Notes under the pieces: generated by a model | Told to the model about the DNA's origin: nothing | The model's input: the letters and a program-made list of their open reading frames with translations, nothing else | Database searches by the model: none | Translations under genes and position numbers: made by a program | Origin: Limnomonas spitsbergensis | Lineage: Eukaryota; Chlorophyta; Chlorophyceae; Chlamydomonadales | Direction of reading: 5' to 3' | DNA: 64,000 nt | Assembly (NCBI GenBank): GCA_037349105.1 | Contig: JAYJMM010000036.1 | Location: forward strand, 1,772,001 to 1,836,000 | Part shown: positions 1,326-39,097 of the stretch, one piece after another | Layout: every line of letters begins with the position of its first letter | Numbering within the stretch: the stretch's first letter is position 1

Positions 1326-4300
1326 CTCCTTGCAGCGCTCTGGGGCGGCGACGGCCACCACAAACTCAAGCGCGATGAGCTGGGCGAGCTGGCCGGCATG
1401 GTCCCCCGCACCGGCCAGCGCAGCCAGCAGCGGCTTGTTGTCCTTGAGCACATCGGCCATCTTGCGATCAGCCGCGGCGGGGGCGCAGAAGACAGCCTCA
1501 AAGAGCACTGCCATCCTGCCTGCAGGGTTCAGGGTTCAGAATTTGCTGTAAGAACTGTGCGGGAATCGGGCACAAGGAAACACAACCAGCGGTTGGGAGC
1601 CAGTGGTAACCGGGGAGGACAATGACAGAACAAAATCAATCCTGGTACATGGAAATCTGTGATGCCCAAAGAGGGAAATTGTGGAGCAAAAGCACTGGTG
1701 CAGAATGCCCGCACACTTCAGGACACCTCTATTCACCTAATGATTTGTTTTCATTAAGGAAAAACTCAATACCATGCAACGCCTGAGCCTTCGCTCACCA
1801 CGCGGTAAAACTATTTCAAACTTGCACTTCCACAGCAATTGGAATTTACCACTCTGGGCAGCAAATAAACAAATTGTGCCAAGTGCCCCCTTCTTCAAAA
1901 TGCTAAAAAGAACATACACGCTTGAAAGGTGCTCAGATTGTTGAGCCTAAAACTGCTTTGGTGTCAGAGGACCCAGGGTATCGACCTGCCATACTGGCTT
2001 GCTCGCGAGCCAGCAATTCACCCTTGCACCATCACCGCCTCATCCTTACACACCCCATGCGTAATATACCGGTATTTAAAAATATTATTTAATGCCGCGC
2101 AGCAACTCGGCGCACCTCCCCAAGGCATGGACTTTATGTGGACCGTAATGCGGACTACGGTACGGTACATGGACAAATGTTAGAAGCTGGCCATGTAATT
2201 AATTAATTTATGCACTACCGGTACCGGTACAGCATACCTGGAATTCCCCCCCTACCTAGACAGACCAAAATACAACCAAGTACAAATGATGGGCCCTAAT
2301 TGGTAGGGTGGCCCAGATGCCCCAGGGGCATTCATGTCAGGGGTAGGCAGAACTGCACTCATTAAGTTTCAACATCCGAGAGAGAAGGATAAAAACTGAA
2401 CGTCCTGCCGAGATCAGGCCCGACTAAATAAGGGGGCATCGGCTTAGGGGAGGTGCGCCTCAGTCAAAAAAAAAGTGTCGATATAAGACGCTAAGCTACT
2501 GAGACATCCGGCGCCAGAGGTCTTAGTGGCTTAGCGTCGTTACATCAACAGGGTGTGCTGCAGGCCCTGCGGGGCCGCGAGATAATTTACCTGGACGGTA
2601 TCGGTCACAAAAGAAAACGATTCTTACAAATTGTGAGTTTTCGAATATCTTTTTTTCGTGACCGACTTCGTCCAGGCATCGCGGGTGTCGTGTTGGAAGT
2701 TCTTCTTAATATGGATTATCAGAATACCCAGGAAGACATCAGGTGCACGTAAAAATATGGGCACAATTCAATACAATTTATTATTACACCTCCTCCAAAA
2801 CCGGCAATTAATGTAGAGCTGTTAAACTGATGTAAAAATCTTTTCGACCCAATCACGTCCTCTTTGACCACCACACACGCACCTGGCAGGCCCCCAGGCA
2901 CCGTCAGCGCTTTGACCGCAGCCGAGACATCTGCTGTGCTAGATCCGCCCTCGAGCATCGCGCGGATCTGGGTGACGGGGCTGTCGGCATCGCCGTTGGT
3001 GGCGGCGGCATCAACAGCAGGCTCAAGAGCAAGTTTGGCAGCCTCCTCCTGTACATTTGAGGGGAATGAGGAGGGGGATCAAGGTATGTTATGCCGGCAT
3101 CGCCATTGGGAGGGGCGGTAGCTACAGCTGCAGCAGCAGGTTTGAGGGCGAGCTTGGCAGCATGCTCCTGCACATCAATTGCAACACGAGAAGGGGTCAT
3201 AAAGCCAATTCATGCAAAGCAGGGTTGTCATTTGATTCAAAGCAGGGCTGCCATTTAATTCAAATCAAGGTTGCTATATGATTCAAATCAGGGGTTGGCA
3301 GCGGTTGTAACAATGCATCTCCTTTGTTTTAAGGCTGCTGACAGCTTAAACCCTAAACCCTAAACAAAGGAGAGGCAGTGTTACAACCGCTGTCAAAGCC
3401 AGTGGTGGTGCCATCAGGAGGCAGCATTCCAGTCATCCAATGGTGGTGCCATCAGGAGGCAGCATTCCAGTCATCCAATGGTGGTGCCATCAGGAGGCAG
3501 CATTCCAGTCATCCAATGGTGGTGCTATCAGGAGGCAGCATTCCAGTCATCCAATGGTGGTGCCATCAGGAGGCAGCATTCCAGTCATCCAATGGTGGTG
3601 CCATCAGGAGGCAGCATTCCAGTCATCCAATGGTGGTGCCATCAGGAGGCAGCATTCCAGTCATCCAATGGTGGTGCTATCAGGAGGCAGCATTCCAGTC
3701 ATCCAATGGTGGTGCCATCAGGAGGCAGCATTCCAGTCATCCAATGGTGGTGCCATCAGGAGGCAGCATTCCAGTCATCCAATGGTGGTGCCATCAGGAG
3801 GCAGCATTCCAGTCATCTTATGGTGGTGCCATCAGGAGGCAGCATTCCAGTCATCCAATGGTGGTGCCATCAGGAGGCAGCATTCCAGTCATCCAATGGT
3901 GGTGCCATCAGGAGGCAGCATTCCAAGCATCCAATGGTTGTGCCATCAGGAGGCAGCATTCCAGTCATCCAATGGTGGTGCTATCAGGAGGCAGCATTCC
4001 AGTCATCCAATGGTGGTGCCATCAGGAGGCAGCATTACAGTCATCCAATGCTTTTTTCTCCTATTCATCCAAGGATTCTGAACATTGATTTCTGATGTCT
4101 TTGTCAGTACCATGTGCAAGTCATACCTACGGCACAGAATCAAGCAAATCATGGTGTGATTTCCTAGTCGGTACCGGTGGCGACTTAAGCCAAAGAACAT
4201 ATCAAACATCTTGAAGTTGTAACGTCAAGTGCAGTCACTCAGTTATTAAGACATCCCAGCAAAGCACAGCGATCCTGGGAAACAAATTTCTCGAGCCTTC

Positions 4301-7300
4301 AGGGCATATGCGAAACGAACAATGGACTGAAAAAAACACTAAAAACAATCACAATCACTGCATGTGATACCCCACCTTATACCGTCCTGCAGTTCAGCAT
4401 TTCCTGTCATGCCCCCCTACCAACAAGACCCCCCCAAAAGCACCGCACAACCCACCCTACCTCAACAACAGACTTTCCTTGCATGCCGTGAGATGCAACA
4501 ACTGAGGCTCTCCCACCCTCACCTGCAGTGTTTCTTTTTTCGTGACTCAGCTACATGCCAGCTACACTACGGCCTCTGGCCGGCGACCCCATTTGTGGCC
4601 AGCCATGCTGCTTTGGCAAACAGTATTAGGCTGGTACAAGTGAAGTCCCATTTGCGCCTTCGGCAGCCGCCGGGCGGCCTGCGTAATGTGGACCCGTGGC
4701 CGAAAAAAGAAGCACTGGTGGTGCAGGCTCTCCCACCCTCACCCACCTGCAGGCGTACGGCCTCCTCCTCGGCCTTCTTCCAGGGTTAAGGGTTTAGGGT
4801 TTCAGGGTTTTGGGTTCGCCCACCTGCAGGCGTACGGCCTCCTCCTCCTCGGCCTTCTTCCTGATTTCCCTCTCAACCTTCTTGCGCTCCGCCTCGGCCT
4901 CCGCCTCAATGTTGCCCTGCGTCACTAGCGCCGCCGTGGCCTCGGACAGCTGCTCCTCAGCGCGCTTCTTGGCGGCTTCGGCGGAAGTGTCGGTCATCCA
5001 AACAACTCCGTCGTCATCGTCATCGTCGTCGTCGTCAGCATCGTCCTGGAGGGAGCAGGGACCAGGGTTTGGGATGAGAGCAGGGACCAGGGTTTGGGGT
5101 GAGACGAGGCACCAGGGTTGGGGATGGGACTGCAGTCCAAAGTTAAATTCAATTATAATTCCGAGGGGTGCAGGTTGAGCTGACCTCTTGTTCCTCTCTC
5201 CTAAATGCCTCTGCTTTAACATCTTTCGATTCATATCCTCCTCCTCATCCTACTCTCCAATTCGTTTGTGCTCACCGGTTGCCTAGTCAGTATTGGGATC
5301 TGACACCGTTCAAGGGACTCCAAGGTGTACCTCATGGGTATACCTCCAAGATGTACCGTAACACGATGTGTCACACCGTACAACAGTAAAATGTTGCCTG
5401 AAGAAGTGTAAAATATGAATTGCGCCGTCAAAAAGCCGACCGTCACGAAAATTGCCCAACACTATACCTATCTACCCCCTCTCACAGTCCTGACCTGCTA
5501 CCTTCCAACTGCCCTGCCCCCCACTTTTATTTCCCGCTCTGCCCGACCAACTCCCCGCTGCCATGCTAGCCCTCCCCCCCCCCTGCCCTGCCCTGCCCTG
5601 CCCCCCTCACTACCCTGCACTGCCCCCAAACAATGCCCTGTCCACTCAGCCCCCCACTGTTGCTGCTGCTGTTGACAAAGCATAAACAAAGCTAGCCAGT
5701 AGCCTTTTTTTAGAAGGCCAGGGAGGGCACTCTCGTATACTCCTCATTCCACCCACACGATCCGCCTCCCAGTCTGTGCACCACTCACCAAGTCATCACT
5801 GGCATCTAGTTAAGCCTGAAACCCTCAACCCTCCCGGTCTATGCACCACTCACCAAGTCATCACTGGCATCTAGTTAAGCCTGAAACCCTCAACCCTCCC
5901 AGTCTGTGCACCACTCACCAAGTCATCACTGGCATCTAGTTAAGCCTGAAACCCTCAACCCTCCCAGTCTGTGCACCACTCACCAAGTCATCACCAGCGT
6001 CTAGTCCAGTCTCTAAACCCCAAACCCTCTCCTTCTGTGCCCTGAGTTTTCAACCCTCAACCCTCCCAGTCTGTGCTCCACTGACCCAGCCATCGCCAGC
6101 GTCGCCATTGCCTTAAACCCTCAACCCTTCCAGTCTGTGCCTTGAGCTTTTACCTCTCACCCCTCCCAGTACATGCACCACTCACGGAGTCATCACCAGC
6201 GTCGCCATTGCCCTCATCTTGGTCGGTCTTCTTTTTCCTCTCCCTGATAAATAAGGCAGACAACAGCGCGGGCAGTGAGAAGCGTACCATGGAGCCATGG
6301 CGCTGCACATGAGCACGGATGATCTCATGGGTCATGTGCTGAACGTACATGCACAGAATCTCACTGGAGATCACTGGCAGTATATCCCACTGATGGTCTC
6401 ATGGGTCATGCACTCATGCGCAAAACGTGCATGCGCATTATCTGAAGGGTTCTCACTGACAGTGCCCCACCGATAATCTCATCCGTCATGTGCAACACAT
6501 GCGCAGTATTTGACTGGATATCACTGGAAGTAACCTACTATCACTGGAAGTACCCTCCTATCACTGGAAGTACCCTCCTATCACTGGAAGTAACCTACTA
6601 TCACTGGAAGTAACCTACTATCACTGGAAGTACCCTCCTATCACTGGAAGTACCCTCCTATCACTGGAAGTACCCTCCTATCACTGGAAGTACCCTCCTA
6701 TCACTGGAAGTACCCTCCTATCACTGGAAGTACCCTCCTATCACTGGAAGTACCCTCCTATCACTGGAAGTACCCTCGTATCACTGGAAGTACCCTCCTA
6801 TCACTGGAAGTACCCTCCTATCACTGGAAGTACCCTCCTATCACTGGAAGTACCCTCCTATGATCCTATCACTGGAAGTACCCTCGTATCACTGGAAGTA
6901 CCCTCGTATCACTGGAAGTACCCTCGTATCACTGGAAGTACCCTCCTATCACTGGAAGTACCCTCCTATCACTGGAAGTAACCTACTGGCAGTATCCCAC
7001 TGGTATTTGGATGCTACTTGGACGCTATTTGGATGCTATTTGGATGCTATTTGGATGCTATTTGGATGCTACTTGGACGCTATTTGGACGCTATTTGGAT
7101 GCTATTTGGACGCTATTTGGATGCTATTTGGACGCTATTTGGACGCTATTTGGATGGTATTTGGACGCTATTTGGATGCTATTTGGACGCTATTTGGATG
7201 CTATTTGGATGCTATTTGGATGCTATTTGGACGCTATTTGGATGCTATTTGGACGCTATTTGGATGCTATTTGGATGCTATTTGGTTGCTATTTGGACGG

Positions 7301-10300
7301 TATTTGGACGCTATTTGGATGCTATTTGGACGCTATTTGGACGCTATTTGGACGCTATTTGGACGCTATTTGGATGCTATTTGGATGCTATTTGGACGCT
7401 ATTTGGATGCTATTTGGACGCTATTTGGATGCTATTTGGATGCTATTTGGATGCTATTTGGACGCTATTTGGATGCTATTTGGATGCTATTTGGACGCTA
7501 TTTGGACGCTATTTGGATGCTATTTGGATGCTATTTGGACGCTATTTGGACGCTATTTGGATGCTATTTGGATGCTATTTGGATGCTATTTGGACGCTAT
7601 TTGGATGCTATTTGGATGCTATTTGGATGCTATTTGGACGCTATTTGGACGCTATTTGGACGCTATTTGGATGCTATTTGGATGCTATTTGGACGCTATT
7701 TGGATGCTATTTGGATGCTATTTGGACGCTATTTGGATGCTATTTGGATGCTATTTGGATGCTATTTGGACGCTATTTGGATGTTATTTGGATGCTATTT
7801 GGATGCTATTTGGATGCTACTTGGACGCTATTTGGACGCTATTTGGATGCTATTTGGACGCTATTTGGATGCTATTTGGACGCTATTTGGACGCTATTTG
7901 GATGGTATTTGGACGCTATTTGGATGCTATTTGGACGCTATTTGGATGCTATTTGGATGCTATTTGGATGCTATTTGGACGCTATTTGGATGCTATTTGG
8001 ACGCTATTTGGACGCTATTTGGATGCTATTTGGATGCTATTTGGATGCTATTTGGATGCTATTTGGACGCTATTTGGACGCTATTTGGACGCTATTTGGA
8101 CGCTATTTGGATGCTATTTGGATGCTATTTGGACGCTATTTGGATGCTATTTGGACGCTATTTGGATGCTATTTGGATGCTATTTGGATGCTATTTGGAT
8201 GCTATTTGGACGCTATTTGGATGCTATTTGGATGCTATTTGGACGCTATTTGGACGCTATTTGGATGCTATTTGGATGCTATTTGGACGCTATTTGGACG
8301 CTATTTGGATGCTATTTGGATGCTATTTGGATGCTATTTGGACGCTATTTGGATGCTATTTCGATGCTATTTGGATGCTATTTGGACGCTATTTGGACGC
8401 TATTTGGACGCTATTTGGATGCTATTTGGATGCTACTTGGATGCTACTTGGATGCTATTTGGACGCTATTTGGACGCTATTTGGATGCTATTTGGATACT
8501 ATTTGGACGCTATTTGGACGCTATTTGGACGCTATTTGGACGCTATTTGGATGCTATTTGGATGCTATTTGGTTGCTATTTGGACGGTATTTGGACGCTA
8601 TTTGGATGCTATTTGGATGCTATTTGGACGCTATTAGGACGCTATTTGGATGCTATTTGGATGCTATTTGGATGCTATTTGGATGCTATTTGGATGCTAT
8701 TTGGATGCTATTTGGATGCTATTTGGATGCTATTTGGATGCTATTTGGATGCTATTTGGACGCTATTTGGACGCTATTTGGACGCTATTTGGACGCTATT
8801 TGGATGCTATTTGGATGCTATTTGGACGCTATTTGGTTGCTATTTGGACGCTATTTGGACGCTATTTGGACGCTATTTGGATGCTATTTGGACGCTATTT
8901 GGATGCTATTTGGATGCTATTTGGATGCTATTTGGATGCTATTTGGATGCTATTTGGACGCTATTTGGACGCTACTATTGACCGATTCCATGTTAGGTGC
9001 ACCAACTCACTTCTTCTCCTTCTTCTCTTTCCCATCCTTGCCATCCTTCTCCTTCCTCTCCTTCTTTTCCTTTTTTATCTTCTTCTCCCCCTCCCCTCCA
9101 ATGGCCATGCGCTCCTCCTCAGCCTTTTTGAGCCTGCAAAAAAGAAACAAAGCGACACGATGAAGCGCAAAGCTGGACAAGCAGTTAACAGTAATCGCAC
9201 TTGAACAAAATCCTGGATTCATTGCATCTCCCAAGCTAAGCAAGCCGGCTCCTAAATAATCCGTAACCAAAGCTCCTCAGACTCCCTCCCTCCCATGACC
9301 ACAAACCATCCCCCCCCACCCTTTATGCCCTGTCACATGCTCACACGCACCTCTTCTCCTCCTTCGACATCTTATTCTCCGGAGGATTTTTGAGGATGAA
9401 TCCGTTGAGCTTGTGGCGGGGGTCCACGTCCGACACCGCACCGCACGCCTTACACTTGAGCGTGATGTTGTCCTTCTTGATCTTGATCTGGGTCTCTGGA
9501 TTGCCGCAGCTGTAGCACTGGACATACTTCTTGATGAAGCCCTCCAAGATCTCACCCAGCTGCACAAAAACAAACAAGCACTCACCGGGTGAGTGCAGGG
9601 TGAGGAGGCTCAGAGGACAGCAGCTTCCCTGCAGGACCTCACCCTACTGCACATCACGCACACTTGGAGGAGTGCAGTGTCAGCATGCTCAGGGGACAGT
9701 AGCTAACCTGTGCAATGCCACCCTGATGCACATCAACACACTAACCCACATAAAAATAAAAATAAACTGGTGGAGTGCAGGGCCAGCAAGCTTAGTATTC
9801 AGCAGCCTCTAGGACCGCAGTTTCGCCTCCTTCCATGAGCATTGGGTGGGGGCCTAGAAAATCTGGAATCAGACAAGTATTATCTAGACTCGCAGACTAC
9901 AGCGTCCAAATCAGCTGTCCTGTCTTCTCAGTCCTCTGCTACTTGTCGTGTTTTGTCTCTGTGGCATCAGCTGTCCTGTCGTCTTTGGCTTATGATACTT
10001 GTCTTTCATGTCCCGTCTCTGAGACATCAGTATCTCAAGTCTGACTAGAATTCCGTGTATTTTTTCAGCGTGTCTACCCATGTCTGCTGTCCAAAATATG
10101 ACACAACTGTCCTATTGTCTCCATAGTTCAATTTCCAGTTCATATCAAACAAATAAATGTACGGTGGGTGTGGCCCTGACTGCAGGACTGTGCTGCTTGA
10201 GCCCATGTCTGCAAGACAACCGAGATATGACCCTGGGCCGTTGACAGCCGCGGGACGGCCCACTAAAGGCAGAGTGGTATTTTTTGGCGTGTGCAGCCAT

Positions 10301-12156: not shown

Positions 12157-12330
12157 TTGTTTCTTTTTTAGTGATTCAGCTACAAGTCAGCTACATGACG
12201 GTCTGAGGCTGTTGGGGCCTGGCGCAGCTGGCCTCGTAGCTTGGGCCGCCGGCCGTTGGCTGGTCGAGGGTGCCCCCATCGGCCCGGTGATGGCTGCCCA
12301 GCGGCTACCAGAAGGTGGTCTGGTGTGACT
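12157..12330 (+). mobile_element. non-autonomous DNA element, family 1, copy 2
   Basis: Shares TGTTTCTTTTTTAGTGATTC and CAGCTACAAGTCAGCTACA with copy 1 (4527-4725), then diverges. The right end is unclear. Its translation CFFFSDSATSQLHDGL parallels [16 protein letters not shown] in copy 1, but this is element sequence, not a gene. Confidence 0.55.
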
Positions 12331-12589
12331 GAAACATACATTGCTTCAAACCGGTGGGGATTCTGTTGGGTTCCTTTAATGATTACTGGATAACGATTTT
12401 ATATGAATATAATGTATATGAATAAACGATGGTTGAAGTGAGGAACACACTGGTATTGCAGCATGAATGGGATGTAGGGAATGGTTTAAAGCCACATCCT
12501 GGACTCTGCAATCTTCATGGACCCATGAACATTTGTCTTCCTTTGCCATGTAGCATGTGGCAAGGTGCCATGTAGCGTGTGGAGGCATG
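12331..12589. other. short intergenic stretch, nothing recognised
   Basis: AT-rich sequence with 'atatgaatataatgtatatgaat', leading into the truncated 5' end of the retrotransposon. Confidence 0.4.
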
Positions 12590-13519
12590 TGGAGGTGAGC
12601 GGGGTGCTTCCCACCCAACCGGACCTCTCGGATCATCGTCCGGTTGCGGCGACCTTTCAACCTCCGGTAGATAGCGGCATCGACGTGGGGGGAGGTCAGC
12701 CTGATGCTGGCCAGCCAGCAGGAAGCTGTCGAACCATCCTGACCTGGAGAGCTGATAAGGCGCACATTTACAGCGCCGCGCTAGCCCGCGATGTGCAGGG
12801 CCTACAGCGTTTCAGCCTGGCCATCGCGGGAGGTGACGACGAGGCAGCCGCAGCGGCGCTCACTGCTGTGATTTGGTCTGCGGCCGAAGCTGCTGGCATG
12901 ACGCGCACTCCGCGGCCCCATGCCCGGCATGGGCAGCATCAGCGCCCCCCTTGGTGGGATGCGGAGGTTCAGAGCGCCTATGCTGCGCTGCGAGCAAAGT
13001 CACTTTGCAGTGCCCCGGGCCTAGAGCGCAAGGCAGCCAGGCAGCGCTACAAGTCCACAGTACGACGACGTCGCCGCTACTACACGCGCCATATGGCAAC
13101 GGCTATAGCTGACAGGCTGCAGCGTAGCGAGTGCAACGTCTACCGGGAGCAGCTGCAAGAGAGGCGGCAGACCTGCCCCACCACGGCTGTCTCCTCTCTC
13201 AAGTGGGAGGCACACCTGCGACAGCAATGCACCGCCACTGTGCCCCCCTCTCTTGCGGCGCCACAGGCAAACTTGCCCCCTACCACCGCTTAGCCGGAGG
13301 ACCTAGGCGTGTCAGCTGAGCAGCTTGCCTCTTGCTTCGCAAAGGCTTTCTCCCGCATGCGCGTACACACCGCGGCGGGCCTAGACGGTCTGGCGGCACC
13401 CTTTATCTAATTGGCGATGGTAGAGGACGATTCAGAGGGGGAGCAACGGCACGTGCTGAGGGATTTGCTGCAAGACTGGTTGACTGCGATGGCGGTGCGG
13501 GGGGGAATGCCTAGTGCCT

Positions 13520-13770
13520 GGCAGCCAGTCAGGATTCAGCCTGTCAGGATTCAGTTTCCAGGATCCAGGATCCAGGATTCAGCCAGTCAGGATTCAGTTT
13601 CCAGGAAGGCGCCCCCCTCGATCCCGGTGATTACCGGCCCATCCCCATCCAGGATTCAGGATCCAGGATCCAGGATCCAGGATTCCAGGATCCAGGATTC
13701 AGCCAGTCAGGATTCAGTTTCCAGGAAGGCGCCCCCCTCGATCCCGGTGATTACCGGCCCATCCCCATCA
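13520..13770 (+). repeat. tandem duplication and CAGGATTC/CAGGATCC micro-array inside the LINE
   Basis: A segment of about 85 bp (AGCCAGTCAGGATTCAG to ATTACCGGCCCATCCCCATC) is present twice. The copies are separated by repeats of 'ccaggatccaggattcagg'. This is a post-insertion rearrangement. Confidence 0.85.
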
Positions 13771-13774
13771 CTAG

Positions 13775-15216
13775 CGTGCTTTACCGGCTGTATGCCAGCA
13801 TGCTCACTGCTATCACTGATGAGTGGGCGCGATTGCATGGCCACGTCCCTCCTGAGCAGTTTGGTTTCCAACAGCGCCGTAGCACGTTCTAGGCTGCTTT
13901 CCTCCTCAGGCATGCAGTCCATGCTCAACGGGCAGCTGCAGGCCGTGGCAAGCTGCATGTGGCCTTTGTGGACTTCACAAAGGCCTATGATAGCGTGCCC
14001 CAGGAGCAGCTGTGGCGGCATTTATGCGAGCATCTTCACATGCCTGCATGCCTGTTACGCGCGGTGCAAGCGCTTTATGCCGGTGCAGTTTACATGCTCA
14101 CTGATGGCCACAAGCGCACTGGTCCTGTGCCTTGCACCAGAGGCATCAAGCAGGGCTGCCCCCTGAGCCCCCTGCTCTTTAGCCTTTACCTCAGTGACCT
14201 GCCGTCCATGCTCGCAGCTAAGTGCCCGGCAGAGGGCATTGAGATGCAGGCAGGGCGACAACTACGCTGCCTGCTGTATGCGGACGACCTCTCCAGCAGG
14301 GCTGCAACGCATGCTTGATGCCTTGCATGAATATGCGGCACATAAACAGCTTCAGGTCAATGTCAGTAATACAGAGGTCATGGCGTTTGGCAGCCGCTTA
14401 GCAGCGCAGCGCCGACAGCCAGCCCATGTTCGCGTTTACGGCCCTGACCGTGCCGTGTTGAAGCGTGTCCAAGATTTCAAGTTCTTGGGCATCACTCAGC
14501 ACGAAAGCGGCGGCCTGAAGAGGGCCATGGAGGGTAGAAAGGCGCCTTTGGCTGCTACGCTGCACCGCGTTCGTCGCATGGCAGCCAAGGTGGGCCTAAG
14601 GCGCCATCTTCCAACCCGCATCAGGTTGGCAGCTGTGTACGCAGCGCCTGCGGCCAACTACGGCGACGTGGTTTGGGCCACCAGCCACCGTCGGCCGCAG
14701 CAATGTCTCTCCAGCAAAATGCAGTCCAGCTTGCTTCAGCACCTACGCCAGGCTGCGGGGCTACCTGCATCAGCCGCCAGTTGGGGAGTCCTGAGAGAGC
14801 TGCAGCTCCAGCCACGACAGCAAGACTGGTGGACCCATATACTCCACTTCTACAATGCAGCGGTGGCACCGGCGGCACAGCAATACAGCCCTCTCATGGC
14901 TCAAGCCATGGCAGCAGATATGCAGCTTGCAGTCAGCCAGGGCACTGGCGGCCGCACCTGGTGCTCTGATCTGCTGGGTGCATTAGAGGAGCTGGAGCGG
15001 GGGGCAGCCACCCCCAACTTGTGCGAGGCAGCAGCTGCCCTACAACGCCTACCCGTCACAGAGGTGTTGGCACTAGTTGACGCAGCCTACGAGCAAGCAC
15101 GGCTGGACCGCAAGCGGCGGTGGGGACCCCAGGGACCCTACCACCGAGCACAGATCTGCGGCGACCTACCACGCCTGGTTCCAGTCCACGGCGGATGCCG
15201 TGCTGGCGCAAGCTAA
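13775..15216 (+). pseudogene. LINE reverse transcriptase domain, broken
   Basis: RT palm motifs are clear: FVDFTKAYDSVPQ (about 13966-14004), GIKQGCPLSPLLFSLYLSDL (about 14142-14201) and LLYADDL (about 14271-14291), the last containing the two catalytic aspartates. Upstream, GDYRPIPIT-like sequence is present twice because of a tandem duplication (13546-13640 and 13650-13770). Just after YADDL the frame shifts by one and continues as LQRMLDALHEYAAHKQLQVN, so a few codons and the frame are lost. A stop also interrupts at about 13890 (...RRSTF, stop, AAFLL). Enzymatically dead as written. Confidence 0.88.
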
Positions 15217-15490
15217 GAGTCGCACTAGCCAGAGGGAGTGTGCTTGTGTGCGCATAAATTTGCGACTGCGGCTCGGCGCGATCAGCACGGCTGATACCAG
15301 AGGACGGCGCAACGGTCAGCGGCGAGAGGCACGCTGCTGCCAGCGGTGTTGGGCACAGGGGGATAGCGAGCAGGTGGAGGATGCGCAACATGTGTGCTTC
15401 CAGTGCCCTAGTGTCAGGGAGCAGTTACGGGAGCGGGGGTGGACAGGTCCTCCGGGCGCTGCCACTAACTTCCACCAGCTGTACCAGGCT

Positions 15491-15872
15491 GAGCAGGGGT
15501 GGGATGCACTTGCTTTTGTGGACTGTGCTGTGGGCATTGTTGAGGGTTCGTCTCTAGGGATTCTGAGGCGCCGGTGTCGTTGGCCTTACCGGCCTTCTCT
15601 TTTCGTCCTATTTTTGTTTGTTGTTGTTGTTGTTGTTTGCCCCCTTTTTAGTTTCTTCTCTTCTCCCTTCTAATCAGTGGGGCGCCTTTGCGGCCAAGCA
15701 GGGGTGAGATACGCTTGCTTTTGTGGCCTTTTTTTTGAGAGGCTTTGTTCAGGGCTACTCTCTAGTGGAACTCAGGTGTCGGACTTGGTTTTCTTTGCCT
15801 TCCCGGCCTCTCCTTTTGTTCCTTTCCCCCCCTCTTCCTTTTAGTTTCTTCTTTTCTCCCTTCTGAACAGTT
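15491..15872 (+). repeat. tandem duplication of the LINE 3' region (~200 bp, 2 copies)
   Basis: 'gcaggggtgggatgcacttg..tttgtgg' to 'tagtttcttctcttctcccttct' at 15491-15686 is repeated in diverged form at 15697-15872. The first copy still encodes the ORF C-terminus, and the second is untranslated. Confidence 0.75.
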
Positions 15873-15913
15873 GGGCCCACACGTCCGAGCTTTGAGCGGG
15901 CCCAGAGGTGTAA

Positions 15914-16809: not shown

Positions 16810-29233
<12,424 letters not shown>

Positions 29234-29588
29234 GCGGATGCGAGCGGCGAGGAAGGGACTGGCGTTTAGTCAGGAGACGCTGCGTCTCAGAGTGGCGATT
29301 GTTGTATGGAATGAACAGCAAGGGGTCTGGCTTTAGGGATGCATGCGTCAAATGCGATGTTCCGGTGGATTGTAAACCAAGCCCTCATAGCGCTCCATGA
29401 GGCACGAAGCCTGAGGTATATGTCTCTATGATGGCTGAAGCCGAACGGGTTTGGAATCTGGCGCGACAGGTGGGCGGGCAAACATGATCACTACCGGTAT
29501 GTTATTTGCAGCAGCATTTGCGTCTTTGATGCGCCTCTGTAACTGAGGGGTGAGTGTGGCTGACTTTGAATGGAGGGAGTCACTGACA

Positions 29589-29646
29589 TTACACCTCTGG
29601 GGGGCGTGGGCGTGGGCGCCCAACTGTTCAGTTGGGAGAAAAGAAG
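29589..29646 (-). mobile_element. LINE 3'-end fragment, minus orientation
   Basis: Reverse complement gives CTTCTTTTCTCCCAACTGAA then CAGTTGGGCGCCC...CCCAGAGGTGTAA, matching the last ~70 bp of the LINE (15850-15913). Confidence 0.75.
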
Positions 29647-29653
29647 AATTTAC

Positions 29654-30548
29654 AGGTAGAGGTAACACAAAATTGGAGAGAGTGTTAAATGCAACTTAAT
29701 AACGGTGCTTACCCGCCGAGGTAAATGCTCGGCCGCTTGGGGCTGGTAAGGAGGGAATAATGACTAAGCTCGATTCCAGCTGAATTTGCAAAACATCCAA
29801 AAGCGTACATGAACTGCCGATTGTAATTTCAGGAAATAATCTGTTTGACTGATAGGGTACACCATATCATCGGGCCAGATCGTGGTCGGCCTGCCGCCAC
29901 GATGATGGCGTGGGATGAAGTGGCTAGATATGCATGGGCGAATGGGTGGCCGAGAGTGCACTTGCAGGCAGCTCCGGTAGCCAAGGCCACACAAAAAGTG
30001 CAAAAGGGATGTACATGACAAAAGGAAGGGGGTCACCGGAACGGTCATGTAAGGCCTGTCAGGGAAACAGTCGGGTAACACGAGCGATGTGTAGAGATCA
30101 AGCAACTTGCGCAGTGTGTGTCGCCTTCACTGGTATGTGCCGAGGCCACCGGCGACCCGGCGTTTGACGTGTCGCCGTTCGGACATGACATTTTGCCAAT
30201 CGGGTTGCCAGGTCACAAACCTGATTCTTAGGGTTGAGTGGCTACGTAGCAGAAGCCAAGCGAAGAAGCCAGCGTGTCAACAGCAAGATATTTGCCGTAT
30301 ATCTGACTGTCACTCAGTTCTTCGCAGTCGAAACTTTCTCGATCCTCCCCACCGGAGGGATAAATCACCAGCAGAACATATACACAACGCGACTCCGCTT
30401 TCCTATTAAATCATCAGTATATCTGGTGGGGTATCTCAATACATAAAATCTTATCTTCTGCACGAAGTATTTCCAAAAGCTTACTGCCGGTGCTACACCT
30501 CGAGCTCGAGCGTGCACAATTGCAGCTACTGCTTCGTCTGAAGTTCAA
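29654..30548. other. intergenic, between AAT and the ELF3-like gene A, nothing recognised
   Basis: No exon, RNA gene or array recognised. Should contain the 3' UTR of AAT and the promoter/5' UTR of the ELF3-like gene. Confidence 0.45.
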
Positions 30549-33500
30549 ATGCTGCCGAATACGTATGGATACAGTCAGGGCACAGCGCCTGGAGCACATT
30601 GGCCTGGAGCTATGAACAGCCCGGTGCGTATTCCTCCTGCGCATTATCTGTTGTTGACAATTTTGGACCAAATCACAAATTATTAGCGCTTACATTTTCC
30701 TCTGGACTGGAAAAGTCTGGAAAGTGCACATGTCCGATAAAGCGGCCCTGATAAAGTGGCCCTCCTCAATCCAGATCTTCAATCTGACACCGCGAAGCGC
30801 GACGATTCCTTCAGGAGAAAGCGGGACACCCAGTTGTTTAACCTCGGAGCCTGTGATGCTGGACTAATATTTCCGTCCCTCGTCTTGCCCCTTTCAGCAC
30901 CCATATGCGTATCCGGGGGCTTTCCCCCCCATTCGAACGACAAGCCAGACCGCAGCCCCGCACCAGTTTCAGCCCTGGGCCCAAGGAGTTCAGTCGTCTT
31001 CCCAAGCCCCGCCTCATCACGGTCACCCTCCGCCATGGGACCCACGCTACGCGCACCCCCAGCAATACTACCCTCGCCCCGGAGCATCGACGATGAGCGG
31101 CCCGCAGCAGTCCACGGCGGGCCCGGAGTCTTACAACCCCAACGCCACAGCAGCCACCTCGCAGCAGCAGCAGCCGAGCATGTACCCTGGCAGTGCTGTT
31201 GCAGCTTCAGAGATGGCCCATGGCGTTCAAGGCCTCATGGTTGGGGGTTCCCACCCTGAAGACCCTCGCATGCTGGGGAGCTTCGAGCATGCTCAAATGA
31301 TGCATGCAGCCGCAGGCACGCCCCTACCCGTCGCCACTGCCTCGCATGGCCCGGCCGCAGCTGGCCCAGCAAGGGTGATGTCCTCGCACCGCTATGGAAG
31401 CAGCAACCAGCTGTCCCATGTGCAACAGCAGCAGCAGCAGCCAGCAGTCAGCTCTGACTCAGCAGGTGGAAGCACAGCGCAGCCGCAGGTCTGTGGCGGG
31501 TACATGCACCGCTCCCATGGGAACATGGGGCCGCCACCCGAGCGGGCCCCGCAGCCTCCACCCGCACCCCGGACGATCGCGCCGGCGCGTATGCGCGAGG
31601 CGCTCGGCCCGAGCACGTTCAGTTCCATCCGCTCCCTGATGCTGCGCCAGCAGTCAACATACGTTCAGCAGCTGTTTGAGCTGCACAAGCTCTGCCAGGT
31701 AAGACGCGCGCGCGGGTGATGGTGAGCGTTGATGCGCCCTCGCTAAGGGGCTCTGAGTAAGAGGGTGGGGTGGAAAAGGAGGGAGTGTTTAATCCCAAGT
31801 GTTGGCAAAGTATCCTTGTAAAGGAGGTGGGAAGTACCGTACTGGTAAGGGAGTTCAGAGTTTTCTCCGATTTTTGTTACACTGTTTTAGTGTAACTTAT
31901 TTCGAATTAGCGCATCAGACCATGCCGGTCCTCCCCTGGGCAGAACCCCCTCACCGGCATCCCTACTGCCGAATGTACCGATGCACATCCTATTGTTCCT
32001 TACTGCGCCCAACATGTGCTCCTCACCCCTTTGCGCCGTGCCGTAGATGCAAAACTGCTCATGTGTGAGATGGAGATCCAGAGCTCGGAGGACGTCGCCT
32101 ATGATGCGTCCGAGGCTCCCACAGCCGCTGCCGAAGGCTCCTGGGGGCCTGCCCCGCGCATCCCTCAATCTGAGCAAAGCGGCGCCGTCGCCGCAGCCGC
32201 GACTGACATGTCTGCGGCCGGGGGGGATTTCCCCTCGGCCCTCTCTATGGGGCCCGGCGCACGTAGGGCAATGGAGTCGGCCGCTGCGTCCCAGCAGCCT
32301 GGTGATGTGACGCCGGACATGGCCCAGGCGCGCCAGCACAACTTCCAGCGCCTCGTGCGCTGCCTGGCCAACCTTCCCAAGGCAGTGCGGCCGGCCCCGG
32401 CTGGCGGATCCAGTGCGCTAGCCGCGTCCCCTGTCGAGCATCCGTTCCCGGGGCCGCCGCGTGGCGTGCTGCGGCCGTGCGCTGTGGTCATGATCCCTAC
32501 AGACGCGCTGATTGAGGAGTGCACCTCGGTGCAGCCCACAGTGGAGCAGCATGGCGAGCTGGACGATACAGAGACTGAGAGGGAGGGGCCAGAAGAGGAG
32601 GATGAGGATGACGACGAAGGTGGGGCCAGCGCGCCGATGGATGCTGAGGATGGTGCCTCGCCCAACGCCGTGGACCCGCTCCATAAGGTGCGCGGGCTTG
32701 GTGGTGCATGTGCCTCCTCCTCTTCACTGCAGATCTAGTCTCTGCTTACTGCGGGTCCCTGAGTGGCCAGCTGAGCGCTTTTTTGCACACTTCGTAGCCG
32801 CACATTATGCGTGGATCCGCTCACAGACGCAAAAGCCTGGAGTCTGGGGTTTTTGCGACGCTCAAGGATTGCTAGCGAGAATGCTTGTGGACTGACGTTG
32901 GCTTTGCTTCTGAACCTGTTGTACCTTTATATTGGGTGCCGCTTAGGTCCCGAAAAAGCTTTCAGACTTCGACATCGACCTGGCTCCTAGCGCCAAGACG
33001 CCACCTCCATATTTGACCAAGCCTCTGGTCCAGCAGCAGCAGCAGGAAGAAAAAATGCAGCCTTTCAGCACTTTTAGGCCAAGCCCGGCCCCGGCTGCGG
33101 CTGCTTGTACAGATCAGATCCCCAAGGCACAGCCAAGCAGGCCGCCGATCTCGCTCGCCGCGCTGCCTATCCTGCCAGCGCTTTTTTCTGCCCCAGCAGC
33201 AGCAGCGGCGGCGGCAGCGCAGCTGCAGGCAGGCCGCCTGGGGCCTGCCCCGCTGTCTAGCAGCCTCTGCCCCGCGCCACTGCCAGCGTACCTGGTGCCT
33301 CAGCAGGCAGCGGCAACTCAGGTGAGGATCTGTATGCTGTGTATATGTGTGTGTGTGTGTCCTATGCCCTAACCAATTTTCCATCCTAACGAGTGTGAGG
33401 GCCTGCCTGCTGTGTGCGGGCCTGCCTGCTGTATGTGGGCCTGCCTGCTGTGCCCTGGCCATCCTAAAGACAGCAAGGGCCTGTCTGTTGTGTGTGCGTG

Positions 33501-36500
33501 TCCCATGCCCTGGCCATCTTTAAGGCAGTAAGGGCCTGCCTGCTGTCTGTGTGTGTGTCCTATGCCCTGGCCATCTTAAAGGCAGTAAGGGCCTGCCTGC
33601 TGTCTGTTTGTGTGTCTTATGCTCTATCCACCCTAAAAATGTGCGGCCCTGCTGGCTGTGTGCCTTTGCTTGTCTGGTGCTACATCTTTCCTTGAAATAG
33701 ATGAGGGCCTGCTGTCTGTGTGTGCTGGTATGTTTTGTGTGTCCATTCTTCGGGGGGTTCTGCTTTGAACAGAGGTTGTGCTGGGCAGGGCAATCATGGC
33801 CCCGCCATGGAGTACCTGCTAACTGAATGTGTCGTTTCGTATGCCTCCTGGCTGGGCTGGGCTGGGCCGACTTCTTGTTTCGCCGGCTTTCTCGCGGGCC
33901 AACCTCCTATCGCGCCCTCCCCTCGCGCAGCCCGCGGCCCTAATCCTTCCGGCGCTGGACTTGCAAGCCGCTTGGTTCGCAAAGCACTTCGTCAGAAAGG
34001 CCAAGACCACACCCGCACCCGCCGGCGCGGCACAAGCGGCCGAGCAGGTGCTGCAGGACGGCCTGCTGCACCCCGACGGCCTCGCCTTCCCCTCACCCGC
34101 CAACGGATACGAACCGCTCGCGTCGGCGCCCGCTGGCGATGCAACGGCTGGCGTCCCCGCAGGTTCGTCTCCGTTGTCGCAGCCGGTTCGCTGGTGGAAC
34201 GACGCAGCCATGACTTTCGGGGACGTTGCGGCGCCGCAAGCGTCGGGCCGCGGCAGTGCTGGGTGCTACGAAGGGTGAGTAACACAGTTATGTCTTAAGA
34301 GCCTTGCTGGCAGGCATTTACGCCTTGCGTTGCCTGTGCCTGTACTGTCCAGGTTTATTACGAGGTGGCGGCGGCTGGCTGGCTGCATCCTCTCCTAATG
34401 CCCTTGGCCCAGTGTTAGTGGCCGCAACTGCCTCGCATTTTCCTGCCGGCCACCTCACATGATATGGAGGCGTCTTCTGATGCATCCTGCCCCATGTACT
34501 CTGATGCATCCTGCTCCATGTACTCTGATGCATCCTGCCCCATGTACTCTGATGCATCCTGCCCCATGTACTCTGATGCATCCTGCTCCATGTACTCTGA
34601 TGCATCCTGCCCCATGTACTCTGATACATCCTGCCCCATGTACTCTGATGCATCCTGCCCCATGTACTCTGATGCATCCTGCTCCATGTACTCTGATGCA
34701 TCCTGCCCCATGTACTCTGATGCATCCTGCCCCATGTACTCTGATGCATCCTGCCCCATGTACTCTGATGCATCCTGCCCCATGTACTCTGATGCATCCT
34801 GCTCCATGTACTCTGATGCATCCTGCTCCATGTACTCTGATGCATCCTGCTCCATGTACTCTGATGCATCCTGCTCCATGTACTCTGATGCATCCTGCTC
34901 CATGTACTCTGATGCATCCTGCTCCATGTACTCTGATGCATCCTGCCCCATGTACTCTGATGCATCCTGCTCCATGTACTCTGATGCATCCTGCTCCATG
35001 TACTCTGATGCATCCTGCTCCATGTACTCTGATGCATCCTGCCCCATGTACTCTGATGCATCCTGCTCCATGTACTCTGACTGCATGGTGTGCAGCATCC
35101 TGCTGTTCTGGGTCCCGACATGCCACTACCTGGCGGCTTGCACTAACACCATGGCAGCCTGCATCCTGTTCTGGATCCTGTCATGCCAATGCTTTGCAAT
35201 GACCCCATGTAGCCTGAACCCTGTCCTGGATCCTGTCATGCAACTGCTTTGCACTGGCCCCATGTAGCCTGGATCCTGCCCTGCAACTGCTTTGCACTGG
35301 CCCCATGTAGCCTGGATCCTGTCCTGGATCCTGTCATGCAACTGCCTGGCACTGGCTCCATGGCGCACTGCATGGGTGGCAGTGCTGTATTTCAGGGCAG
35401 GAGCACCAGAACGATTCTGTTTAGACTGAAGGTCGGATGTGTGTGTCCCTCTCTCACCCCCTCTGGTGTGGTGGTTTAGGGGCGACCCGATGCAGCTGCC
35501 GTACAAGAAGCGGGCCATGATGTACAACGGCAGCGTGCCCGTGACCTCTGAGGGCTATGGCATGATGGGAGACGTGCCGGCCAAGGGCTATGGAATGATG
35601 GGAGACGTGCCGGCCATGCCGGTTTCGGTGCCCCGCCCGGGGTTCAACGCTTTCAAGGTGAGAGCACTGCGCTAGTTTAGTGTCGAGGGTTTAGGGTTTA
35701 GGGCCATGCCGGTCTTGGTGCCCCGCCCGGGATGCAACGCGCGTTCAAGGTGGGAGCACTGCGCTAGTTTGTGTTGAGGGTGAAGGGCCATGCCGGTCTC
35801 TTTGCCCCGCCCGGGGTTCAACGCTTTCAAGGTGAGAGCACTGCGCTAGTTTAGTGTCGAGGGTTTAGGGTTTAGGGCCATGCCGGTCTTGGTGCCCCGC
35901 CCGGGATGCAACGCGTTCAAGGTGGGAGCACTGCGCTAGTTTGTGTTGAGGGTGAAGGGCCATGCCGGTCTCTTTGCCCCGCCCGGGGTTCAACGCTTTC
36001 AAGGTGAGAGCACTGCGCTAGTTAAGTGTCGAGGGTTTAGGGTTTAGGGCCATGCCGGTCTTGGTGCCCCGCCCGGGATGCAACGCGCGTTCAAGGTGGG
36101 AGCACTGCGCTAGTTTGTGTTGAGGGTGAAGGGCCATGCCGGTCTCTTTGCCCCGCCCGGGGTTCAACGCTTTCAAGGTGAGAGCACTGCGCTAGTTAAG
36201 TGTCGAGGGTTTAGGGTTTAGGGCCATGCCGGTCTCTGCGCCCCGCCCGGGATTCAACGCTTTCAAGGTGGGAGCACTGCGCTAGTTTGGGGTTAAGGGC
36301 CATGCCGGTCACGGTGTCCCGCCCGAAATTTAACTCAAGATAAGAGCACTGCGCTGTCTCTCTTGAGTGCGCACCACCGGCATGGGACCAGCTTGTGAGC
36401 GAGGGCTTTTCAGTTTGCACCCCGCTCTGGCTTCAGTACTCGAAACTGGTACTGATGGCTTACAACGAGTACGGTAGATTCCTACCACACGCGGATGTGT

Positions 36501-37445
36501 GAGGCCTCTCGCAATTGCAGTCAACGTTCCTGTGCCGACCCCAAATCTTGGCGACCGGTTGTACCGTATGTCTGACACTAGGACTAGTTGAAGGGTAACA
36601 GACTAACGGAGTCGGGTCGGGACCGGTCTGCTAGGGCTGTGTGCCCTCTTCTAGTAAAGAACCAAACCTGTTTATATTTTCAGGCACTCGTGAGCCTCCC
36701 AGTCGACGTTTGGAAGGGGGGGGGGTATTTTCCTGTTGCCTGTACATGCTTGCTGTCCTTCTCCTTTTTCAAACATGCACATGCTTGCTGCCCTTTCCAA
36801 ACGTGCATGTGATGTTCTTGACGTTTGATGATGAATTTTCCATTTGCAGAAACCCCGTGGCCAGCGCAAGGAGCGCAGCAAGGCGGGCAGCAACCGATTC
36901 TCGATGGGCGGCGGGGGCTGCTCGGATGGGGATGACCCAGGCTCAGGCACGGAGAGCGTTGCGGCCGAAGGCTCCAAGTGGGTGACATGTTTTTTTGTCG
37001 TACGGTATTTAACCCTTAACCCTGAATTGGAAAGTTCAAAGTGGGTGTCATGTTTTTTGTCGTATGAAACCTTGAACCCTGTACCTGAAGAATACCTGAA
37101 GGCTCCAAGTGGGTATCGTGATAATTTGCCTTCTTCTCCCTGGGATTTGGGCCTCCGCCTTTTATATAGAGGGGTTGTTGAAAGAGTTCTTGAAGGACGG
37201 AGGTGTCGGCAGCTGCTGCAGATATCTCCTTCCAACGCGCACGCGCTCTTTATTCCTTTTTCCACCTGATCGTTGTTTCCAATCCCCGTCTGACCCTGCT
37301 TTCAAAATGCTGTACTCGCAGGCGCTCTCACGCCAGTAGAGATGAGAGCAACCGGGAGACTGTCAGCGGTTGCAGTGTTCCCAAGAAAGACAACAAGAAG
37401 CTTAAGGTGGCGGCAGACGTGCTCCTATCTCTGGCCACGCGTTAG
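30549..37445 (+). CDS. ELF3: ELF3-like protein A (evening-complex scaffold family), probable 1-nt frameshift
   Basis: In land plants ELF3 is a nuclear scaffold of the circadian evening complex. Exons: 30549-30623, 30898-31698, 32047-32687, 32947-33321, 33931-34274, 35480-35657, 36850-36977 and 37322-37445 (TAG). All introns are GT-AG and phases fit except exon 3. Recognition rests on RQQSTYVQQLFELHKL at the exon 2 end joined to KLLMCEME in exon 3, matching the plant ELF3 block QQxxFxxQxFELHRLxxVQKL. Exon 2 is proline/glutamine-rich, exon 3 has an acidic run, exon 4 has polyQ and polyA, and exon 6 has LPYKKRAMMYNGS. Exon 3 starts ATGCAAAAC, one A short of the duplicate at 55438 (ATGCAAAAAC). 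Without that base the frame is lost. With it, the protein would be about 888 aa. Introns carry arrays and junction echoes. Confidence 0.68.
33340..33640 (+). repeat. ~57-bp intronic repeat, ELF3-like intron 4
   Basis: Diverged units of 'gtgtgtcctatgccctggcc' + 'atcttaaaggcagtaagggc' + 'ctgcctgctgtct'. The duplicate region has one extra unit (57-bp length difference near 57000). Confidence 0.85.
34480..35085 (+). repeat. 24-bp minisatellite, about 25 copies, ELF3-like intron 5
   Basis: Unit TGATGCATCCTGCYCCATGT plus ACTC, with a two-state C/T position (CTGCCCC or CTGCTCC). Open in several frames on both strands because 24 is divisible by 3 and there is no stop. Not a coding region. Confidence 0.97.
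35658..36350 (+). repeat. eight tandem echoes of the ELF3-like exon 6 donor edge
   Basis: The real edge (35620-35670) reads GCCATGCCGGTTTCGGTGCC ... TTCAACGCTTTCAAG|gtgaga. About eight further copies follow at roughly 85-90 bp, in two alternating subtypes (TCTTGGTG with ATGCAACGCG, and TCTCTTTG with GTTCAACGCT). TTTAGGGTTTAGGG occurs at the joins. Most copies retain AAG|GTGAGA or AAG|GTGGGA. Confidence 0.97.
36978..37115 (+). repeat. two echoes of the ELF3-like exon 7 donor edge
   Basis: The real edge reads GAAGGCTCCAA|gtgggtgacatg. Copies AAGTTCAAAGTGGGTGTCAT (about 37031) and GAAGGCTCCAAGTGGGTATC (about 37097) follow, separated by TTAACCCTTAACCCTGAA and CTTGAACCCTGTACC. Confidence 0.9.
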
Positions 37446-37797
37446 TCTTGATGCCAAGAAGTGCCCCTGGCCACGCGTTAGTCTTGATGCCAAGAAGTGC
37501 CCCTGGCCACGCGTTAGTCTTGATGCCAAGAAGTGCCCCTGGCCACGCGTTAGTCTTGATGCCAAGAAGTGCCCCTGGCCACGCGTTAGTCTTGATGCCA
37601 AGAAGTGCCCCTGGCCACGCGTTAGTCTTGATGCCAAGAAGTGCCCCTGGCCACGCGTTAGTCTTGATGCCAAGAAGTGCCCCTGGCCATGCGTTAGTCT
37701 TGATGCCAAGAAGTGCCCCTGGCCACGCGTTAGTCTTGAGGCGAAGAAGTGCCCCTGGCCACGCGTTAGTCTTGATGCCAAGAAGTGCCCCTGGCCG
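37431..37797 (+). repeat. 36-bp array carrying the stop codon, about 10 copies
   Basis: Unit TGGCCACGCGTTAGTCTTGA then TGCCAAGAAGTGCCCC. The first unit contains the last codons and the TAG stop of ELF3-like A (ACG CGT TAG). The array extends into the 3' UTR. The duplicate at 60611 has one more unit. Confidence 0.97.
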
Positions 37798-39060
37798 CAA
37801 GTCATGCCAGAACCTGACAGGGTGAATTATGTCTTGCCGGATCGTACGGGGGGAAATCTTGGTGCGTTTATATGCATAACGAGCATGGCTTGTAGGCTTG
37901 CTTGGTTTTGTCCTCACCGGCTGCCTGCCGAGGATCATCGTGGTGTCCCATGGACAGAGTAGTTGCAGGATTGGATGAAAGCCCTGCCTAGCTTGGTAGA
38001 TGGAGGATCCATGAGGCTGCAAGTAGCTTGCTCATTAGTTTTTATTGGGCGTTGCGTGCAGTTGATTTTACAAAATATTTAGTGATCGGGAATGAGCTTT
38101 TTACTGTTTTGTCAGTTGCTTTCTTTGAGTGTTTTTTGTTCCCCAGGCATACATGCCCAATGTTTATGATACATTTGGGAGGTGTGTTGTACGGGAAGGT
38201 GGATACGTTGAAATAATGTGTTCATGTCATTTAGCCTTTGTCTGGTCCAGCCCAGCCGTCTCGACTGCCTGCCGGAGCAGCCGTGGTTGTGTGGGATGCG
38301 TCTACAACGGGAGCTCCTGGCCTGTGCGTGGTTTTGTCACGAGTTGGCCCTTCCCTCCATTTTCAAGACAAATAAGAACATTTTTTGAAGGGTTGGTGTC
38401 TGTGTCCATGCTACTGCTTAATTTCCTTCCTCGTTTGTTCGCCGGCGTCACTGAGATTTGGCATGCTTATGAAAGCAGGTCGGTTTCATTGGTTGTGGAA
38501 GGTGCTACTATCATTTGGAGGCTGGGGGGCATGCCCCCATAGCCGGTTATAATATAGTATGTACCTACCAGTATGCAAAGGGGGCATTCGTATTTAAATT
38601 TTCTTGGTTCTTTTAAGACAAGTTAATTGCAAATGTTTCCAGTTACTAATGCGGTTATGTGTACTGCACTGGTTTGAAAGCATGTTGTGTTTTTACTCAG
38701 CTGCTTGTACACGTTGCTAAGCATGCCATGAAATGGCTTTCTTCCCGCACCCTCGGAGGAACTTCCCCCCTCCACAAGGGGGTGACAAATTAGTTTTTTA
38801 TTTAAGGAGGTCTTAGCAGTACTGGTATGTTCTGGTACGAATTTATTAGCCTACTGTCATGCATTGCATTTATCAGTCAAGTCTAACTGATGTAAAAAAT
38901 AAAACGGTTCAACTGTCCGTGCTTGCTGAAATGCTGGTCGAAGCACGTTCTATATTTTATTTTGCCGTGACGAGGTCATGTCTCTTGGCAAGACCTGAAC
39001 ATCATGATGACAGACAACGAGGGGACTAGGCTGGCCTCTCCCTTTTGGGCTGCTAAGTCA
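37798..39060. other. downstream of ELF3-like A, nothing recognised
   Basis: Contains the presumptive 3' UTR. Short open frames here show no recognisable family. Present in duplicate at 61013-62275. Confidence 0.5.
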
Positions 39061-39064
39061 ATGA

Positions 39065-39097
39065 CGTTACACCTCTGGGCCCTGCTCAAAAAGGCTC
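39065..39097 (-). mobile_element. LINE 3'-end fragment
   Basis: Reverse complement reads GAGCCTTTTTGAGCAGGGCC then CAGAGGTGTAACG, the terminal motif of the LINE family. A related degenerate plus-strand copy lies at about 39390-39425. Confidence 0.7.

Follow-up and report, generated by a model that had tools for sequence, protein, structure and literature searches.

Introns of the green alga Limnomonas spitsbergensis harbour copies of the exon edges that adjoin them, splice sites included. These echoes were analysed in a 64-kb window, the whole stretch considered here, which comprises positions 1772001–1836000 of contig C36 in a 260-Mb assembly of 124 contigs, and in further genes of the same genome. 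The echoes that an earlier note had described in three genes of the window, encoding eIF5, aspartate aminotransferase (AAT) and an ELF3-like protein, are confirmed as real and beyond chance. The anomaly is a depletion in exon interiors, with junctions showing no enrichment. The best account of this pattern, held at a probability of roughly 0.7, is a frequent local duplication that is blind to position and is seen through a selective filter.

Junctions, exon interiors and intron interiors

An independent sample was assembled from Cpn60/TCP-1 chaperonin and kinesin exons, chosen without regard to echoes; 68 of 72 chaperonin and 54 of 139 kinesin matches entered. Introns were placed using the reading frame, the position in the profile and the splice score. 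Neighbouring domain matches with profile gaps outside −16 to +12 were not taken as intron candidates, and 3 of the 54 candidates were dropped for a low splice score or a length misfit, so that 51 were kept. Tests with 40-mers covered introns of at least 150 bp, 47 from the independent genes and 25 from the window, with the 4 shorter introns among 76 omitted.

Segments spanning a splice junction were echoed in their own intron in 16/94 cases in the independent genes and 9/50 in the window. The corresponding figures are 12/94 and 7/50 for 40-mers from the exon edge, 18/94 and 7/50 for those from the intron edge, and 2/91 and 0/39 for those from the exon interior, taken 50–90 bp inside the exon. 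In dinucleotide-shuffled introns, 40-mers from junctions, exons and intron edges found no match at a score of at least 30, and intron-interior 40-mers of the independent genes matched in 2.8%. The excess of junction over exon-interior segments anticipated in the earlier note is pronounced (25/144 versus 2/130, p=7e-6; p=0.0008 in the independent genes), and the recurrence that it reported across unrelated genes extends to the kinesin and chaperonin introns. A diverged copy at the C119 site of ELF3-like exon 6, described below, suggests that strict thresholds miss old copies, in which case the echo rates are lower bounds.

The focus on exon ends that the same note proposed is a different matter. 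Intron-interior 40-mers are echoed in 21/108 cases in the independent genes and 21/69 in the window (42/177 overall), and no excess of junctions over the intron interior was found (p=0.72 for the independent genes, p=0.17 for all), nor is there a clear peak of density at the junction. When the query at each junction comprised 60 exon and 50 intron bases, a copy containing at least 10 exon bases was detected at 28/144 junctions. The copied segments reach about equally into the two sides, with medians of 34 bp for the intron, where the query was limited to 50 bp, and 36 bp for the exon; among the 28 copies, 2 end before the junction and 4 include just 1–6 bp of intron. The argument that exon boundaries are no natural starting point for ordinary minisatellites overlooked selection: an array lying wholly within an exon would break the protein, and one straddling a junction need not.

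The proportion of positions straddled by a duplicated segment conveys a similar picture for the independent genes. Deep-intron positions are straddled in 35.5% of cases, a figure in which long arrays weigh heavily, junctions in 14/102 and deep-exon positions in 2.2%, compared with 2.8% in shuffles; the profile drops to about 4% by 45–60 bp into the exon. The deficit lies in exon interiors (2/91) with no excess at junctions (16/94 versus 21/108), and this is one of the grounds on which a position-blind process is preferred.

Such a process would frequently generate short local duplications, direct and tandem or near-tandem, ranging from tens of bp up to about 120 bp and showing no clear preference for exon edges. 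Its initial step may be a staggered double-strand break whose two ends are filled in and rejoined, so that the overhang is copied, and telomere-like filler would sometimes remain between the copies; from these products we infer break repair and telomerase as a putative origin. Duplications inside coding exons would then be removed by selection, a step supported by the depletion of exon interiors, whereas a duplication straddling a junction would keep an intact exon and splice site and be tolerated, the other copy becoming intron. Array length would subsequently shift by slippage, unequal exchange or conversion, and, with the exon end of the array constrained and the copies decaying, echoes would be recognisable and seemingly graded with distance; the data support both of these later steps. 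Position-blind duplication combined with selection predicts an even reach across the junction, direct copies and a rarity of exon-interior copies. A straddling duplication also requires that the junction end of the exon be present in the copies, as it is in 65 of the 68 discussed below.

Echoes at individual junctions

An exon-edge echo was defined as a local alignment scoring at least 34 in the exon's own intron. On this basis, echoes were detected at the donors of eIF5 exons 5 and 6 and the acceptor of its exon 7, at the donors of AAT exons 3, 6 and 7 and the acceptor of its exon 12, and at the donor of ELF3-like exon 6; the donor of ELF3-like exon 7 passes once the query takes in more intron. 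Nine of the ten junctions named in the earlier note are thereby upheld, together with an array at the ELF3-like stop codon, and AAT exon 8 falls below the required score of 34. The features are as follows, with TRF denoting Tandem Repeats Finder.

18091..18328, plus strand: AAT exon 3 donor (junction 18124/18125) and units of about 99 bp with the exon end (TRF, 99 bp x 2.4)
20454..20740, plus strand: AAT exon 6 donor (junction 20477/20478) with diverged exon-end copies
20983..21206, plus strand: AAT exon 7 donor (junction 21020/21021) and a 113-bp tandem copy
29037..29069, plus strand: AAT exon 12 acceptor echo, CAG and the first 30 bp of exon 12
29070..29101, plus strand: telomere-like filler with a CCCTGAACCCTAAACCCC core between the AAT exon 12 copies
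5765..6214, minus strand: eIF5 exon 5 donor (6186/6185) and units of 65–100 bp (TRF and alignment)
4739..4773, minus strand: echo of the eIF5 exon 6 end and donor GT, exon part 100% identical
4774..4815, minus strand: telomere-like filler between that echo and the eIF5 exon 6 end
3131..3176, minus strand: echo of the eIF5 exon 7 start with AG (true acceptor 3049/3048)
35612..36325, plus strand: ELF3-like exon 6 end and donor, 8 echo copies (TRF and alignment)
36967..37125, plus strand: ELF3-like exon 7 end and donor, plus copies (extent by eye)
37431..37796, plus strand: 36-bp x 10.2 array starting at the ELF3-like stop codon (TRF)
59133..59501, plus strand: second segmental copy of the ELF3-like exon 6 array, about half the length
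60610..61011, plus strand: second segmental copy of the stop-codon array, 11.2 units versus 10.2 (TRF)

The AAT exon 3 copies lie at +65 and +164 bp, with exon parts 100% and 89% identical. At exon 6 the copy at +96 is 82% identical and has lost the GT, and further copies were read by eye; the tandem copy at exon 7 carries the exon end and GT at about 21102–21133, and the exon 12 echo at 29037–29069 is identical to 29102–29134. The units at eIF5 exon 5 carry the exon end and GTGAGTGG, with CCCTCAACCCT-like DNA inside them, and the exon 7 echo retains the AG with an exon part 76% identical. In the ELF3-like gene, AGGGTTTAGGGTTTAGGG is located between alternate units of the exon 6 array, and the exon 7 copy matches 11 bp of exon and 49 bp of intron.

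A survey over all genes examined yielded 68 copies, 8 of which constitute one low-identity (65%) array at locus L047. The splice dinucleotide is usually retained, as had been claimed for donors and acceptors alike: GT or AG persists in 49 of the 65 copies reaching the exon edge. Direct copies were found for 19/144 exon-edge 40-mers and inverted copies for 0/144. The reported decay of similarity with distance from the true junction was also borne out, the nearest copy bearing a greater resemblance to the exon than the farthest does at 11 of 12 informative junctions (sign test p=0.006), of which three belong to one gene; there is one further tie, and eIF5 exon 5 is the exception. This gradient fits seeding from a constrained exon end, and locally exchanging tandem arrays in general also tend toward similarity between neighbours.

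Telomere-like filler and paralogous sites

Contig C1 starts with the CCCTAAA motif, and this motif is taken as the telomere repeat. Blocks of this class number 90 in 233 kb, as against 0–9 for the 19 alternative orderings of these bases, and the degenerate 19-mer AACCCTGAACCCTGAACCC has 2058 occurrences genome-wide versus 1 for the reversed pattern; the genome's own telomere motif is found above chance at internal sites. Telomere-like clusters are placed between duplicated flanks (score of at least 40) in 43/82 cases, compared with 21% of random positions. Thirteen of the 43 flanked clusters are in the window, several of them in the same arrays, and 1 of 83 clusters was dropped for too little flank. 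The fillers are mostly degenerate.

The earlier note had described the copies as often punctuated by CCCTAAA-like DNA, and this part of the description stands. It was assessed on a set of non-overlapping duplicate pairs, with pairs having both copies in known exons and low-complexity copies left out. A telomere-like block is present in 10/46 exonic pair gaps (random placement mean 1.9, maximum 7 in 500 trials) and in 32/377 non-exonic ones (mean 14.2, maximum 28 in 500 trials). A special tie of the filler to exons is weak: the exonic over non-exonic excess gives p=0.015 overall and p=0.11 without the window (6/35 versus 24/298), and the greater ease of recognising old exon copies bears on this excess. 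The blocks neither cluster clearly at junctions nor show a consistent orientation relative to transcription: C-sense and G-sense blocks number 44 and 26 in kinesin and chaperonin genes, 5 and 15 in the window. The window has 20 such blocks, all of them inside the gene spans as drawn, which occupy 38.7 of the 64 kb.

Paralogues on contig C119 offer a comparison for three of the echoes, and for two of them, at AAT exons 7 and 12, the partner site is empty. At exon 12 the paralogue has a single acceptor with neither copy nor filler, and the combination of echo and filler occurs once in the genome. At exon 7 it has a single donor without a copy, and the intron aligns with that on C36 up to the start of the copy. 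Duplication on C36 is the simplest reading of both sites; as these are paralogues, loss on C119 is possible. At ELF3-like exon 6, the exon end on C119 is followed about 50 bp downstream by one strongly diverged copy, whose score was reached by 0/500 shuffles with soft scoring and 34/500 with strict scoring, and there is neither an array nor a TTTAGGG block. The two-copy state may predate the split between C36 and C119, and the eight-copy array with TTTAGGG is confined to C36. The filler-bearing echoes compared with C119 thus comprise one empty site and one diverged copy lacking the telomeric block.

C36 carries the ELF3-like exon 6 unit three times, at a spacing of about 23.5 kb, and C119 carries it once. 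Copy number differs between the recent segmental copies, both in the exon 6 array (35612–36325 versus 59133–59501) and at the stop codon (10.2 versus 11.2 units), and array length differs also between the C36 and C119 paralogues. A mobile or introner-like element was considered and rejected on the two units tested, the ELF3-like unit being gene-specific and the AAT echo with its filler single. The ELF3-like stretch itself is repeated on C36, at 31991–40549 and 55381–63763 with 94–99% identity, and the third place of its exon 6 unit is at about 1854.9k on that contig. Other arrays are present in the intron upstream of exon 6 in the ELF3-like gene of the window, and the C119 paralogue has a 78-bp tandem array upstream of that exon (L082:1–459).

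A further echo, of period 108 and with telomere-like filler, is common to the two paralogues L044 (5854–6020) and L045 (6906–7079). Its copies are 88% and 90% identical to the exon of their own gene and 81% identical to the other echo, with few informative sites. Exons of the paralogous contig pairs C36/C119, C39/C99 and C84/C114 are roughly 80–90% identical, and their introns are mostly left unaligned by blastn. C36 and C119 have at least three paralogous pairs in common (chaperonin, AAT and ELF3-like), and the three contig pairs possibly stem from an old whole-genome or large segmental duplication.

Competing explanations and known systems

Several observations weigh against position-blind duplication as set out above. 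The straddling profile is uneven, albeit in small numbers: acceptors of the independent genes are straddled in 9–12/51 cases at 10–30 bp inside the exon, 6 at the junction and 7–9/51 at 10–30 bp inside the intron, and donor junctions of the window in 7/25 cases versus 3/25 at 5–10 bp into the intron. This profile leans toward junction-targeted copying, and the exon-side excess could reflect constrained exon copies staying recognisable for longer. At ELF3-like exon 6 the C119 paralogue does have a copy, and the echo of L044 and L045 needs conversion or repeated re-duplication that seems to be still acting. Lastly, slippage alone fits the filler-free repeats, the break-origin step being read back from its products. 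A mechanism aimed at exon ends, in which R-loops, RNA-templated repair or exon-end breaks copy the edges into the adjoining intron, would draw on the exon-side excesses, on the far more frequent echoing of exon edges than of exon interiors, on the greater similarity of the nearest copies and on the confinement of the window's telomere-like blocks to gene spans (20/20, several in the same arrays). It is very improbable in view of the equal rate of echoes from intron interiors, the reach of about 34 bp into the intron with no cut at the junction, and the lack of any significant excess of junctions over intron positions in the comparisons made. Use of the copies, whether as alternative exons or splice sites or as decoys that selection maintains, is less probable still. 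Retention of GT or AG and the echo common to paralogues are in its favour, as are 10 copies, in three arrays, that could lengthen the exon in frame without a stop; these belong to a count of 41 copies with intact GT/AG in the AAT, eIF5, kinesin and chaperonin genes, of which the other 31 would frameshift or add a stop if used. Moreover, the AAT model yields a full-length protein, close to its relatives, with none of the copies included, and two of the three echoes examined are absent in paralogues.

Two further readings concern the origin of the duplications. Replication slippage and unequal exchange could act alone, with no breaks and no telomerase, the telomere-like blocks being merely common intron sequence. 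Many arrays are filler-free with regular periods and array length changes between recent copies, as this view would have it; on the other side, filler between copies exceeds random placement, and slippage is not a typical source of first duplications of 30–110 bp that lack pre-existing repeats. It is a possible but minority reading, and equally tentative is the proposal that abortive telomere healing founded a subset of the echoes, telomerase adding TTTAGGG/CCCTAAA to a broken end before CST-Pol alpha-like fill-in and rejoining. The abundance of CCCTAAA-class blocks over other orderings, the filler in exonic and non-exonic gaps and the joint absence of duplication and filler at AAT exon 12 on C119 are consistent with such healing, as are mammalian telomeric insertions at breaks, for which one report gives target duplication at 4.6–16% of loci (PMC2246262). 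Conversely, 36 of 46 exonic gaps are without filler by the strict test, the excess of exonic over non-exonic gaps has p=0.11 without the window, and telomere-like DNA could be a fragile site and not a product; at ELF3-like exon 6, where C119 has a diverged copy and no TTTAGGG, the filler may be later or may have decayed. As CST functions at telomeres and also in break fill-in, a link between the two would be attractive; the ELF3-like site is no help to it. A bolder version holds that introns of this algal lineage grow largely by failed telomere healing and form layered records of breaks with the youngest copies beside the exon. Telomerase-tagged, filled-in ends would be rejoined to leave copy, telomeric filler and copy, and the exon edge would be reused as the sole unchanging template. 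This generalization is doubtful, distinctly more so than healing as the origin of a subset.

Position-blind duplication under selection may also be compared with known systems. The Rogers model reportedly derives intron gain from tandem duplication of an AGGT-containing exon piece, and both tandem duplication and splice sites are features of the algal echoes. The model predicts that an intron starts like the next exon and ends like the previous one; 0/72 introns have a start matching the downstream exon start and 0/72 an end matching the upstream exon end, and it was rejected here. A close parallel is provided by tandem repeats across exon–intron boundaries in human genes (PMC2812944), described there as 27 intron modifications in genes of segmental duplications, with units of roughly 30 bp and a copy number that varies between recent segmental duplicates. 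The algal copies likewise are direct units of tens of bp with exon and intron sequence; unlike the human ones, they sometimes come with telomere-like filler, and they affect roughly a sixth of the junctions in genes whose choice took no account of duplication.

Small tandem duplications arising from CST-Pol alpha fill-in at breaks with 3' overhangs (PMC8355091, PMC5730883) are direct and tens of bp long, and the algal copies conform in being direct, tens of bp long and never inverted. The former follow induced breaks in mammalian cells, whereas the latter are known from their products alone and have given rise to arrays. In mammals, interstitial telomeric sequences at double-strand breaks (PMC2246262, PMC7215372), for which an action of telomerase has been argued, are short internal telomeric blocks, some with target duplication, and the empty partner of AAT exon 12 is comparable. 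None of the human ones lies in exons and the mammalian duplication accompanies a minority, whereas in the alga 43/82 clusters lie between duplicated flanks, many of which are exon edges. Repair that captures nearby DNA (PMC2671141) yields local duplicates that may carry exon pieces and splice sites; that study excluded copies within 50 bp, whereas the algal copies are adjacent and direct. No description of the pattern in algae was present among the top literature matches listed from one open-access library, judged by title and start of abstract.

With about one sampled splice junction in six straddled by a local duplication, this genome constitutes a natural laboratory for the onset of duplication and the lengthening of introns. 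Because selection holds the exon copy constant, echoes can be polarised more readily than intron repeats of the ordinary kind, and paralogous partner sites serve as before-and-after pairs. Sequence comparison alone can address two questions: how a minisatellite is founded, and whether telomerase is active at internal breaks in organisms other than mammals. Gene finders should also take note, as decoy GT/AG sites that are intact and accompanied by real exon sequence adjoin the true ones.

The gene models of the window are as follows. AAT, rebuilt, has 12 exons at 16810–29233 on the plus strand and a spliced protein of 435 aa, which is 81% identical to Chlamydomonas eustigma AAT over 99% coverage, as befits a green alga with kinship to Chlamydomonas. 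The eIF5 gene runs on the minus strand from 11285 down to 1326, with 8 exons found and a product matching eIF5 structures; a match to 'Crov588' in PDB on the same strand is taken as spurious, reflecting similarity of repetitive sequence. The ELF3-like gene occupies about 30550–37446 on the plus strand. Its name, presumptive here, comes from the earlier note, and a Pfam scan of residues 1–292 gave no match; a scan of ten long plus-strand open reading frames likewise gave none. Between eIF5 and AAT, 12529–15673 appears by eye to be a broken reverse-transcriptase-like coding sequence, three open reading frames of which have no Pfam match. Two very long arrays are also present: an 11-bp unit repeated 179 times within an eIF5 intron (7004–8974) and a 22-bp unit repeated 182 times at 48810–52770.

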